In this document: in pieces, positions 8,508-12,502 of the stretch
Numbering within the stretch: the first letter of the stretch is position 1
How the letters are laid out: every line of letters starts with the position of its first letter
DNA from: Fusobacteriota bacterium
GTDB taxonomy: Bacteria > Fusobacteriota > Fusobacteriia > JAPLKR01
Assembly: GCA_026387965.1 (NCBI GenBank)
Contig: JAPLKR010000045.1
Location: 1-14,709, forward strand
DNA: 14,709 nucleotides
Reading direction: 5' to 3'
The notes under the pieces: generated by a model
The model's database searches: none
Told to the model about the DNA's origin: nothing
What the model saw: only the letters and a program-made list of their open reading frames with translations
Program-made: the position numbers and the translations under genes

Positions 8508-8554
8508 TATCCTCAATTTTCAATTAAGTGCAACTTAATTGAAAATTGAGGATA
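8508..8554. repeat. 22-bp perfect palindrome, repeat-family copy 2
   Basis: Left arm 8508-8529 and right arm 8533-8554 are exact reverse complements around a GCA loop; the right arm reads ACTTAATTGAAAATTGAGG then ATA. It has the same centre and distal CCTCAATT as copy 1 but a different, still perfectly paired, inner segment. Its right arm contains the likely -35 hexamer of the downstream gene. Confidence 0.8.
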
Positions 8555-8603: not shown

Positions 8604-8870
8604 ATGAAAAATTATAAAAAATTTACACATTCTGCTTGCGAATATTTTCCCTGTCATAAAAATGTTAATCTAGATAAAACCGAAAATTTTAATTGCTTAT
8701 TTTGCTATTGTCCCCTTTATTCTTTGGGAAAAAAGTGTGGTGGAAATTATATCTATACTTATGGCGTCAAAGATTGCTCTTCATGTCTTATCCCACACTC
8801 ACCTGAAGGATTTGACTACATTATGAAAAAATGGGAACTTATTCATAATTTAACACTTAAAAATATGTGA
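8604..8870 (+). CDS. Cys-rich small-domain protein, probably metal-binding
   Basis: 88 residues with eight cysteines at 12, 17, 31, 34, 36, 45, 58 and 61, plus conserved-looking FTHSACEYFPCHK, CLFCYCPLY, KCGGNYIYT and KDCSSCLIPH. This matches the Pfam family I know as the cysteine-rich small domain (PF04071), thought to bind a metal; no biochemical function is established. ATG at 8604 follows GAGGTGA at good spacing. There is no signal peptide, so it is cytoplasmic. It is transcribed alone, between the palindrome-borne promoter and a terminator near 8907-8961. Family members have been seen near cobalamin genes; the nearby B12-dependent operon is only suggestive. Confidence 0.85.
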   Translation: MKNYKKFTHSACEYFPCHKNVNLDKTENFNCLFCYCPLYSLGKKCGGNYIYTYGVKDCSSCLIPHSPEGFDYIMKKWELIHNLTLKNM

Positions 8871-8906
8871 AAAAAACAACCAATCAAATAGTCATTTTCT
8901 TAATTC

Positions 8907-8961
8907 TAATCCAATATTTTCGCATAAAATGTGTTAAATATTATATATTGGTTATTTTTTT
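8907..8961 (+). terminator. Probable terminator after the Cys-rich gene
   Basis: TAATCCAATAT (8907-8917) can pair with ATATTGGTTA (8945-8954) with one bulged base, with further pairing inside (ATTT with AAAT), and a run of seven T follows (8955-8961). The loop is long and the stem AT-rich, so support is moderate. Confidence 0.5.
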
Positions 8962-8985
8962 ATCACTTTTGAACAGTATTTAACG

Positions 8986-9014
8986 TTGAACTTTACGCGG
9001 TAGTAGGCTATAAT
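8986..9014 (+). promoter_or_regulatory. Near-consensus promoter of the permease leader
   Basis: -35 TTGAAC (8986-8991), 17-bp spacer, -10 TATAAT (9009-9014). The transcript should begin near 9021, giving a leader of about 210 bases before the permease, far longer than needed for translation. That leader contains a small ORF, mutually exclusive hairpins and a terminator. Confidence 0.75.
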
Positions 9015-9046
9015 AATTTTAATGAAATTAATTTAGGAGAATATTT

Positions 9047-9091
9047 ATGGCAGTTATTAGCATGAAAACAAAAAAGGTAAATAAACGATAG
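9047..9091 (+). CDS. 14-residue lysine-rich leader peptide
   Basis: ATG at 9047 follows a TTAGGAGA ribosome binding site at ideal spacing and encodes MAVISMKTKKVNKR then TAG (9089-9091). Four of the last eight residues are lysine and the last is arginine. The stop codon overlaps the first base of the hairpin segment at 9091. Its place, 30-odd bases after a strong promoter and before alternative RNA hairpins and a terminator, is that of an attenuation leader peptide. The first seven residues equal the usual N-terminus of ribosomal protein S2, which may be chance. Expression is plausible but unproven. Confidence 0.6.
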   Translation: MAVISMKTKKVNKR

Positions 9092-9214
9092 GATTTGCTT
9101 CAATGAATTATCATTGGCAAATCCAGGTTGTGTTATTTTGCCAATGATGTTTTGTTTCGTGCGAGTAGTGTATGATTAATAACGTCTTGGCAGTATGCTA
9201 AGGCGTTTTTATTT
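9091..9214 (+). promoter_or_regulatory. Putative transcription attenuator of the permease gene
   Basis: Segment 1 (9091-9106) pairs with segment 2 (9111-9124) as a 14-bp hairpin with a TT bulge and ATTA loop. Segment 2 (9110-9121) also pairs perfectly over 12 bases with segment 3 (9137-9148). Segment 3 TGCCAA (9139-9144) can pair with TTGGCA (9187-9192), which is the left arm of an intrinsic terminator, AACGTCTTGGCA (9181-9192) with TGCTAAGGCGTT (9196-9207), followed by TTTTTATTTT. Formation of 1-2 would free 3 to disrupt the terminator; a ribosome covering segment 1 would favour 2-3 and termination. The structure is read directly; the regulatory logic is inference. Confidence 0.65.
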
Positions 9215-9232
9215 TCAAAAAAGGAGAATTTT

Positions 9233-10660
9233 ATGACAAGTTCAAAATCATCAACAAAAAAAGTTGCTGGGCTATCGGTATTTGCAGTCTCAATGATTAC
9301 TATCACATCTGTTGATAGCATCCGAAATCTACCTGGTAGTGCTACTCTCGGCTCTCAAGCTATTTTCTTTTTTCTCATTGCAGCCATTCTATTTTTTATT
9401 CCTGTTGGTCTTGTATGTGCTGAGCTCACAACTATGTTTCCCGAGCAAGGCGGTGTATATCTTTGGGGAAAAAAAGCATTCGGAGAAAACTTCGGATTTA
9501 TCGCACTTTGGTATCAATTTGCTGAAAACCTCGTTTTCTATCCCACTCTACTTATTTTTATTCTTGCAACACTCTTCTACCCCTTTTCCCAACATGCATC
9601 AAATGATCCAAAATTGATGTTTATCGCAATTAATATAGTGTTTTGGGGCGTAACACTTCTTAATTTTTTCGGACTAAAAATTTCAGCTATATTTACTGAA
9701 GTTATGGGGCTTTTAGGTACGATTCTACCTATGATATTAATTTGTGGTGTTGGACTGTTCTGGTTTTTGACGAAAGGCGATTTAAATCAAATTTCTCTTA
9801 ATTTGCATACTCTTTTACCTGTTTTTAGTAGCAATACACTTTCAATCACATTCACTTCTGTTGTTTTATCTCTTACAGGTATGGAAATTGCAACCGTTTA
9901 TGCAAACGAAGTGAAAAACCCTCAGAAAAGCTATCCTAAAGCTCTGCTTATTGCAGCCATCTTCATTATGATCACACTAACTTTAGGTTCTCTTGCTATT
10001 TCAACAGTTATTGGTCCTCAAAGTTCTACACTTAACCTTGGAGTTATGCAATTTTTTACTGAATTCTTCCGTGTAATTCATATGCCATTTATGACAGTGG
10101 TTATTGCATTTTGTATTGTACTTGGAGGTCTTGCAAGTCTGAATAACTGGATTATCGCACCTTTAAAAGGCCTTTCATCAAGTGCAAAAGATGGCTTCTT
10201 TTCTGAACGATTTAAAAGAGAGAATAAACATCAAGCCCCTGTGTTTATGCTCGTTGTGCAAGGTATTGTTGTATCGGCACTTTCAAGTATATTTATCTTT
10301 ATTCCTAGTGTTAACGAGGGTATGTGGCTTCTTAATATTCTTATGACGCAGCTCTATATGATAATGTATATTACAATTTTTATTAGTTTTATTGTTGTTC
10401 GTTACAAATTTCCTACACTTACTAGACCTTTTAAAGTACCTGGTGGCAACATTGTAGCTTGGATAGTCTCATTTTTTGGTCTATTGGCATCCAGCGGAAC
10501 CATCCTAATTAGCTTTAAGCCTGACCCAAGTGTTGGAATTGCAGAACCCTATTTATTTATTGTAGCTCTATTTATCGGGCTATTTATATTCTCGGTTCCA
10601 GCACTTTTTGCCATGGTATACCGCCAAAAAAGATTGAACCAAGAAAATTTAACACAATAG
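9233..10660 (+). CDS. APC-family amino acid permease, GadC-like antiporter
   Basis: 475-residue membrane protein with about 12 hydrophobic segments, an APC-superfamily transporter most like the glutamate:GABA antiporter group. Shared features are the N-terminal FFFLIAAILFFIPVGLVCAEL segment, EQGGVYLWGKKAFG, GMEIATVYANEVKNPQKSYPKA in TM6-7, ASLNNWIIAPLKGLSSSAKDG and the late TRPFKVPGG. It is shorter than E. coli GadC (511) and lacks most of that protein's C-terminal plug. ATG at 9233 has an AAGGAG site. It has its own promoter and an apparent attenuator, and faces the decarboxylase operon across a shared terminator. Glutamate, another amino acid, or exchange for a decarboxylation product are all possible; sequence does not settle the substrate. 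Confidence 0.85.
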   Translation: MTSSKSSTKKVAGLSVFAVSMITITSVDSIRNLPGSATLGSQAIFFFLIAAILFFIPVGLVCAELTTMFPEQGGVYLWGKKAFGENFGFIALWYQFAENLVFYPTLLIFILATLFYPFSQHASNDPKLMFIAINIVFWGVTLLNFFGLKISAIFTEVMGLLGTILPMILICGVGLFWFLTKGDLNQISLNLHTLLPVFSSNTLSITFTSVVLSLTGMEIATVYANEVKNPQKSYPKALLIAAIFIMITLTLGSLAISTVIGPQSSTLNLGVMQFFTEFFRVIHMPFMTVVIAFCIVLGGLASLNNWIIAPLKGLSSSAKDGFFSERFKRENKHQAPVFMLVVQGIVVSALSSIFIFIPSVNEGMWLLNILMTQLYMIMYITIFISFIVVRYKFPTLTRPFKVPGGNIVAWIVSFFGLLASSGTILISFKPDPSVGIAEPYLFIVALFIGLFIFSVPALFAMVYRQKRLNQENLTQ

Positions 10661-10694: not shown

Positions 10695-10743
10695 AATAAT
10701 AAAAAGAGCATTTTACATAAAGTAAAACGCTCTTTTTATTATT
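10695..10743. terminator. Bidirectional terminator between convergent genes
   Basis: Arms 10695-10716 and 10722-10743 form a 22-bp inverted repeat with one mismatch and an ATAAA loop. The AAAAAGAGC / GCTCTTTTT core gives T-runs on both strands. The right arm overlaps the decarboxylase stop codon (10739-10741), so the hairpin serves both the permease and the decarboxylase. Confidence 0.8.
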
Positions 10744-12502
10744 CAGATATTACTGTAATGCATAAATCTCCATCACAGTCTTTAAATGAACCGTGAATTT
10801 CAAAATCAAAACCTGGCATTAATTTTCCACCCTCTTCAAGTGCTCTAAGTTGTAAATAGCCTGAGTCAGAAGAAGTAATTCTCTCTCCTGGATAGTATAT
10901 ACAAATTCCTGGCGGATATACTAGAAGAATGGTTGCACAAATCTCATCTTTAATCTCTTTAAGTTTAATTGTTTTAACCTCTTCACGCTTAAAATATTGG
11001 AATGCGTGGTATGGTGTGTAAACTTGCTCAGGTAGAACATCTAAAGAATGCTGAGTTTGATACTCGATTTTTCTTTCGATATAGATGTCATTTATCATTT
11101 TAGTAACTTCCTGAATAGTTTTTCCCTCATAAAAAATTGGGTCTTCTGCAAAAATCGATGGAAGAATATCTTTTAATGGAAGGTTTTTTTCAAACTCTTT
11201 ATAGAATTTTTCTAATGTTTTCAATAACTTTTCAATTTTACTTTTGCTGCTACTTGCAGATACTAAAATTAACATTGTATATGGGTTGGTTTTCTCAATA
11301 ATGATTCCATTAAGTTCCAAATATTTAGATACCACTCTGGCAGGAATACCAAACTCAGCTTTATTGGGAAATAGGATGGATACTTTTAATGGGTCAAGAT
11401 AAGCTTCCCCTGCTTTAATATCTTCATACCCGTGCCATGTATCCTCAGGCTTTAACTCCCAAACACTATTTTCAACTAAATTTTCTGGTTGCCATACATC
11501 AAAATACCACTTACCTTCTGCTTTGTGCTTTAAAAACTCTTTTTTAAGCTCTTTTCTCAGATAAAGTGCATTTTTAACTGTATTTTGAAAAACGTGAGAA
11601 CCTGTCTTTTTATCTTCGCTTAACATTGCAATTGACATTTCAATAGATGCCATCATTGGGTAAAATGGAGAGGTTGTTGTATATTTCATAAAAAGTTCCG
11701 ATGCAAGATGCTCATTATACTTACCTTTTACTGTTGCAATAGATGCCATTGAGAATGCACCAGCAAGCTTATGTACCGATGTTGTTTGAACAATTCTTTG
11801 ATCAACATTAGGAACTGTTCTATGTCCACTTTGCTGAATATACATATCATAGAAAGATGCGTACGTAACCCACGCCTCATCAAAATGAATTGTTTTAACC
11901 TTTTTCAAGCTATCTACAATGCGTTGAGTATTATAAAAAATTCCATCGTAAGTTGAATTTGTTACAACTGCATACGTAGGGTACTTTGTTGCCCCATATT
12001 TTTTCATTAATCCATCAATATCTTCAAATTCTGTGTAAGGAATCGTCCCTAAAACACCATAACTATTTCTAGCTGGAGTAAAATACAATGGCTTAACATC
12101 ATTTCCCATCAAAAAGTGAGCAATTGATTTATGACAATTCCTATCAACTAAAACTGTATCGCCACCACTTACAGAAAGGTCAGCAACAAATTTATTTGCA
12201 GTTGATGTTCCATTAAGTATTGGAAAAGCTCTATCTACATTGAGAATTTTTGCTAAATACGCCGTTGACTCTCCATATGGTCCTGAATTATCTAGAAGTG
12301 AGCCCATCTCAACTGCCGAAGCTGATGTGTCACATTTAAAAATGTTCTCACCAAGAAAACCTTTAAATGTCTTTCCAATATCAAAGTGGTCAAACAGTGA
12401 TCCAGCATCATGTATCGGTGTACAGAAAGTTTCTTTCTTAGAGTCCGCAAAATTAAATAATGCCTTTGTAAATACCGGTAATTTATCAAATTCTTTCTTC
12501 AT
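10739..12502 (-). CDS. Lysine/ornithine/arginine decarboxylase, wing-less
   Basis: 587-residue fold-type I PLP decarboxylase aligning by eye with the linker, core and C-terminal domains of CadA/LdcC; it begins where their roughly 130-residue N-terminal wing (response-regulator-like) domain ends. PLP residues are in place: K245 in SVHKLAGAFS forms the Schiff base, D208 in HFDEAW contacts the pyridine nitrogen, H124 in DRNCHKS stacks on the ring, and NGTSTANK (97-104) holds the phosphate. C-terminal motifs FDVWQPE, TWHGY, LDPLKV and YPPGI also match. The usual TPGHMGG reads TPIHDAG (28-34). The enzyme turns a basic amino acid into a diamine and consumes a proton. ATG at 12502 follows GGAGG; it lies 37 bases after the antiporter gene in one operon. 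Lysine is favoured by the LysRS neighbour, not proven. Confidence 0.88.
   Translation of the reverse strand: MKKEFDKLPVFTKALFNFADSKKETFCTPIHDAGSLFDHFDIGKTFKGFLGENIFKCDTSASAVEMGSLLDNSGPYGESTAYLAKILNVDRAFPILNGTSTANKFVADLSVSGGDTVLVDRNCHKSIAHFLMGNDVKPLYFTPARNSYGVLGTIPYTEFEDIDGLMKKYGATKYPTYAVVTNSTYDGIFYNTQRIVDSLKKVKTIHFDEAWVTYASFYDMYIQQSGHRTVPNVDQRIVQTTSVHKLAGAFSMASIATVKGKYNEHLASELFMKYTTTSPFYPMMASIEMSIAMLSEDKKTGSHVFQNTVKNALYLRKELKKEFLKHKAEGKWYFDVWQPENLVENSVWELKPEDTWHGYEDIKAGEAYLDPLKVSILFPNKAEFGIPARVVSKYLELNGIIIEKTNPYTMLILVSASSSKSKIEKLLKTLEKFYKEFEKNLPLKDILPSIFAEDPIFYEGKTIQEVTKMINDIYIERKIEYQTQHSLDVLPEQVYTPYHAFQYFKREEVKTIKLKEIKDEICATILLVYPPGICIYYPGERITSSDSGYLQLRALEEGGKLMPGFDFEIHGSFKDCDGDLCITVISE

Follow-up and report, generated by a model that had tools for sequence, protein, structure and literature searches.

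For a long time, attenuation by leader peptides was known only from Proteobacteria and Actinobacteria, until examples were also described in Firmicutes (PMC2965389). No RNA element was detected at lysine operons of Actinobacteria (PMC1262725). In the his operon of Salmonella, slow reading of the His codons leads segments B:C and D:E to pair, with read-through as the outcome; a ribosome that has reached the stop codon brings about the terminator E:F. Pairing of A with B causes termination when the leader is untranslated (PMC4046918).

Here we describe a leader ahead of a gene for a GadC-like permease in a genome of the Fusobacteriota, within a window of 14,709 nt (the whole stretch of DNA that was analysed). 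Our search of the open-access literature returned no report of a classical attenuator coded by lysine, or of a leader-peptide attenuator in Fusobacteriota. The tnaC leader is similar in that its peptide governs an operon that includes a permease, the catabolic tnaCAB operon, but it differs in using nascent-peptide arrest by free tryptophan and Rho-dependent termination. Control of this catabolic operon by the TnaC peptide has been described (PMC3902921). In the speF-potE leader of Salmonella (orf34/speFL), pausing at Arg codons raises expression (PMC6386406). This leader likewise combines a leader peptide with alternative RNA folds before genes that include an amino-acid antiporter, but it involves Rho, RNase G and sequestration of a ribosome-binding site, with no intrinsic terminator reported in it (PMC6386406). 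In view of these two systems, the description of the present architecture as unusual for an antiporter, given in an earlier note on this DNA, was too strong (PMC6386406, PMC3902921).

We regard the leader as a genuine and well-formed attenuator of a type already known; its topology is his-like. It shares with hisL of Escherichia coli and Salmonella a short ORF with regulatory codons (here putative) before the stop, a chain of pairings equivalent to B:C, C:D, D:E and E:F with the terminator last, and a predicted output that is ON for a stall and OFF for a ribosome at the stop codon. No sequence similarity between the two leaders is expected. They differ in that hisL has seven consecutive His codons, whereas four dispersed Lys codons are found here, and in that the target here is a permease. 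Furthermore, his has an A:B helix, whereas the OFF state of the untranslated leader would here come from pairing of the ORF with a distal region. A fifth helix of the A:B type was sought and none was found even at -6 kcal/mol, so the leader is assigned as his-like in topology only. In the trp and phe attenuators, the ORF is separated from the terminator by one helix step less.

The leader ORF and its chain of helices

The AT-rich leader lies between the gene for a cysteine-rich small protein (8604-8870) and the permease gene (Table 1). The earlier note had placed a near-consensus promoter in this region; the sequence TTGAAC-17-TATAAT does occur there, although matches of this kind are no more frequent than chance predicts (4 found vs 3.9 expected). 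Further upstream, a perfect 20-bp hairpin (window 8508-8554) follows the 7901-8422 gene and is likely a strong terminator.

Table 1. Features of the leader and the gene that follows it (window coordinates)
Feature	Position	Strand	Basis or remark
Sigma-70-like promoter	8986..9014	+	Consensus match 10/12; by itself not above chance
Shine-Dalgarno AGGAG of the leader ORF	9036..9040	+	Sequence; SD-short-ORF arrangement rare genome-wide
Leader ORF, MAVISMKTKKVNKR and stop, 14 codons	9047..9091	+	Sequence; Lys codons at 9065, 9071, 9074 and 9083
Segment 0, ORF part predicted to pair with 9150-9169 when untranslated	9053..9073	+	Helix computation
Segment 1 (like his B), starts at the last base of the stop codon	9091..9106	+	Pairs with segment 2
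Segment 2 (like his C)	9109..9124	+	Partner is segment 1 or 3
Segment 3 (like his D)	9137..9151	+	Partner is segment 2 or segment 4
7-bp hairpin inside the 3:4 antiterminator	9157..9175	+	Local fold
Segment 4 (like his E), antiterminator arm and terminator 5' arm	9181..9193	+	Helix/terminator computation
Segment 5 (like his F), with the T-rich terminator tail	9196..9216	+	Terminator prediction
GadC-like APC-family amino-acid permease, 475 aa, regulated gene	9233..10660	+	Pfam PF13520, 4e-55

The 14-codon ORF and its good ribosome-binding site are present as previously described. The arrangement AGGAG-N4-9-ATG followed by an ORF of 8-30 codons occurs 54 times in 2.6 Mb (own genome, both strands). 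The expectation is about 0.005 per 250 nt, or about 0.0002 if the stop must fall in a given 12-nt target beside segment 1; this rarity rests on the AGGAG match, and under a looser Shine-Dalgarno definition such ORFs are common. The arrangement is far above chance and is not fortuitous, and the stop codon of the ORF abuts segment 1. We infer that the ORF is translated in the cell.

A second short ORF, MNYHWQIQVVLFCQ with its stop (window 9103-9147, forward strand), starts 12 nt past the leader stop. An AGGA (9090-9093) overlaps that stop, and the frame traverses segments 1-3. This ORF could be reached by reinitiation; ORFs of this kind with a loose Shine-Dalgarno are common by chance. It was considered as a second sensor and not adopted for lack of evidence.

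Beyond the ORF, four mutually exclusive helices are observed, the last of which is an intrinsic terminator ahead of the gene. Helix 1:2 (9091-9098/9117-9124 and 9101-9106/9111-9116) has 14 bp. Helix 2:3 (9109-9121/9137-9149) has 13 bp and is extendable to 19 over 9102-9121/9137-9156. Helix 3:4, the antiterminator (9138-9151/9181-9193), has 13 bp with one bulge and closes the 7-bp hairpin. Helix 4:5 (9181-9192/9196-9207) has 12 bp followed by TTTTTATTTT, is the sole terminator-like site in 8700-9400, and ends 26 nt before the permease start. All four interlocking pairings had been proposed in the earlier note, and all are present. The 3:4 pairing exists as claimed but is about twice as long as the 6-7 bp given there, and its true length makes it a credible antiterminator.

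Computation shows the chain to be non-random. The leader fold lies 5.45 sd below dinucleotide shuffles, and the native four-helix chain scores -76.3 kcal/mol. No such chain is found in 400 shuffles, the best of which reaches three helices and -35 kcal/mol. With the same metric and depth limit, E. coli hisL also has four helices and a score of -76.0; under the strict definition, thrL and pheL have two helices, and trpL, leuL and ilvL one. The site ranks first in its own genome by this metric (1.30 Mb of 1.79 Mb, both strands), a scan that gave no other convincing attenuator of this type. Among 42 sites with a terminator before a gene, only this leader has a chain of three or more, and its presence in single copy shows that it is not a dispersed repeat. 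Fortuitous repeats, or an ordinary terminator of no regulatory meaning, would agree with the lack of relatives carrying the element among 98 same-class genomes and the gammaproteobacterial orthologues, but the shuffles, the genome rank and the single copy make this reading extremely improbable.

The helices alone would be able to switch between terminator and antiterminator without a ribosome, as expected of an attenuator that responds to a ligand or protein and in which the ORF is incidental. However, no Rfam family reaches its gathering score in the window (the best weak match, rli61, has E = 0.054, far below cut-off), and no aptamer-like conserved core is visible. Neither a T-box nor a lysine riboswitch (L-box) gave a covariance match in the window, and none of either was found in the own genome. 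A strong SD-ORF whose stop abuts segment 1 is also unlikely by chance, and we regard a ligand- or protein-responsive attenuator as improbable.

Ribosome position and the predicted direction of the switch

To follow the folding of the leader, bases under the ribosome were blocked codon by codon and pairing probabilities were computed as the RNA grows, with a footprint taken as normal (3' edge 12-18 nt past the P-site base). With the A site at any of codons 1-11, 1:2 reaches 0.97 and 3:4 reaches 0.90-0.94 before segment 5 is made. For a ribosome at Lys7, Lys9 or Lys10, segment 1 is free and the corresponding values are 0.97 and 0.91-0.94. When the A site holds the stop codon, the probabilities are 0.84 for 2:3 and 0.12 for 3:4. 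In silico, ribosome position thus switches the leader between antiterminator and terminator. In the absence of a ribosome, 3:4 does not exceed 0.23, since part of the ORF (9053-9073) is then paired with 9150-9169 through the helices 9060-9073/9150-9162 (-14.9) and 9053-9067/9155-9169 (-12.6).

At full-length equilibrium, only stalls at Lys7 and Thr8 favor 3:4 (0.90 and 0.88). For most stall positions the terminator wins, suggesting that read-through depends on 3:4 forming first. The direction of the switch is unchanged with the 3' edge at P+15 or P+18 and at 20, 30 and 37 C. With a short footprint of P+12, the Lys stalls are unchanged, and the stop-codon state is weaker and no longer terminates at equilibrium. 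In control leaders, the model favors the trpL antiterminator at Trp11/Arg12 and that of pheL, stall-dependent as in the present leader, at Pro5-Phe14; both are low at the stop, in agreement with known behavior. No sharp discrimination is obtained for hisL, leuL and ilvL. The model is thus a guide and not proof.

The earlier note had proposed the same attenuator with the other direction: a ribosome held on the Lys/Arg codons would cover segment 1, favor 2:3 and termination, and shut the permease off when charged tRNA-Lys is scarce. In favor of this, 2:3 forms ahead of segment 4 synthesis when the ribosome is held at Arg14 and, in part, when it is held at Lys13 (0.93 and 0.68, respectively, at 9155). 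However, segment 1 is covered only by a ribosome at Arg14 or the stop, and partly at Lys13. It stays free at the other three Lys codons, which are located upstream, and a starved ribosome halts at the first Lys codon that it meets. The proposed direction is probably inverted, and as an account of this leader we find it decidedly improbable. According to the model, scarcity of charged tRNA-Lys would probably turn the permease ON, and complete translation of the leader would turn it OFF.

In the mechanism that we propose, a ribosome waiting within the first eleven codons would leave segment 1 free and allow 1:2 to form; a shortage of Lys-tRNA would most plausibly hold it at Lys7, Lys9 or Lys10. 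Segment 3 would then capture segment 4, and RNA polymerase would read through (ON). A ribosome at the stop codon would instead cover segment 1, giving 2:3 and the 4:5 terminator, and transcription would stop (OFF). With no translation, little 3:4 would form, since the ORF itself would pair with the leader's 3' half (mostly OFF).

The identification of a leader-peptide transcription attenuator before the permease, as first put forward in the earlier note, is supported by the ORF, the four-helix chain, the shuffles and the genome rank. We consider it likely that the GadC-like permease is controlled by a ribosome-mediated transcription attenuator whose five segments are arranged as in the his operon, ON upon a stall and OFF at the stop; we infer that the switch works in the cell.

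Lysine as a candidate signal

Lys makes up 7.3% of the codons of the genome. In the leader it accounts for 4 of 13 (P = 0.012, post hoc), and Lys or Arg for 5 of 13 (P = 0.008, post hoc). The Lys run is broken (KTKK, K), and its position fits regulation. Since the ON fold results wherever in codons 1-11 the A site lies, the leader may sense translation in general, that is, any amino-acid shortage or a slowed ribosome, with the A-rich codons acting as an RNA pairing arm. The Lys excess reaches only the P value given above, and the A-rich Lys stretch also pairs with 9150-9162 in the stronger of the two segment 0 helices, a pairing that may be what keeps these codons. However, three of the Lys codons lie within codons 7-10, the zone where a stall is most effective, reminiscent of trpL, which also has 14 codons and carries its regulatory Trp codons at 10-11. 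We judge sensing of translation in general to be fairly unlikely.

Lysine is a plausible signal, but the enrichment is modest and specificity for lysine no more than suggestive. Given that the leader is an attenuator, lysine as its signal falls just short of an even chance. The complete reading is possible if rather doubtful: a classical attenuator responding to charged tRNA-Lys would govern a lysine-related APC transporter in a Fusobacteriota lineage that gave neither T-box nor lysine riboswitch, and its ORF would be the arm holding the leader off in the absence of translation. Two circumstantial links to lysine are found in the genome. The permease gene is convergent with a gene resembling lysine/ornithine/arginine decarboxylases and with one for a CadB-like antiporter, and its closest paralogue in the genome (34%) is divergently adjacent to a lysA gene (G000:C45:17435-20275; L019, L188).

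The decarboxylase (window 10739-12502, reverse strand, 587 aa) is of the OKR_DC type. Its best NCBIfam profile match starts at position 129, so that the N-terminal wing domain present in E. coli LdcC/CadA is missing. The space between this gene and the convergent permease gene holds a 20-bp hairpin flanked by T-rich sequence (window 10697-10741), which looks like a shared bidirectional terminator.

Origin of the permease and its leader

The permease matches the NCBIfam GadC models at 1.7e-98 but below cut-off, and lies below the cut-off of every NCBIfam antiporter model. Its nearest solved relative is GadC (4dji). The closest proteins are from Thiotrichales (56-57%) and Photobacterium (51-53%), with at most 36% within the class, for which the comparison genomes are no closer than class level to the own genome (95.5% complete, 33% G+C, 1.79 Mb). 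This greater similarity to gammaproteobacterial than to same-class proteins suggests that the permease was probably acquired laterally.

No homologous leader was found in the 98 same-class genomes, which gave only AT-rich chance matches of 17-56 nt. The element is absent from the leaders of the nearest, gammaproteobacterial permease orthologues (52-57%), which have a different architecture, and no comparable leader precedes eight distant permease relatives from the same class or the own genome. Plasmids and viral contigs gave permease homologues only at 44% or less, or none. Given its absence from the gammaproteobacterial genomes, the leader either arose in this lineage or came from an unsampled source.

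The gammaproteobacterial loci have features of their own. In two Thiotrichales genomes (L032, about 2438-2491; L038, 1806-1859), a conserved 17-codon ORF, MYKQYYK(D/S)AFMSQIWND, precedes the orthologous permease. It is single copy in each genome, its differences are mostly synonymous, and in L032 its stop lies directly before the permease ATG. The Photobacterium orthologues (L033-L041) have in common ACCATTTTTG direct repeats about 130 nt upstream, which are probably transcription-factor sites. Several of these loci carry an L-cysteine desulfidase-like (CyuA/YhaM) and a RidA-like gene downstream, both recognised by eye.

Codon content alone cannot give the direction of such a switch, which is decided by the ribosome footprint. 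From the five-segment chain, stalls separated by just a few codons are predicted to have opposite outputs, and the leader could thus serve as a test bed. If the proposed reading is true, it would extend leader-peptide attenuation to another phylum beyond Proteobacteria, Actinobacteria and Firmicutes, and would add lysine to the signals of attenuation and an APC-family permease to its targets.
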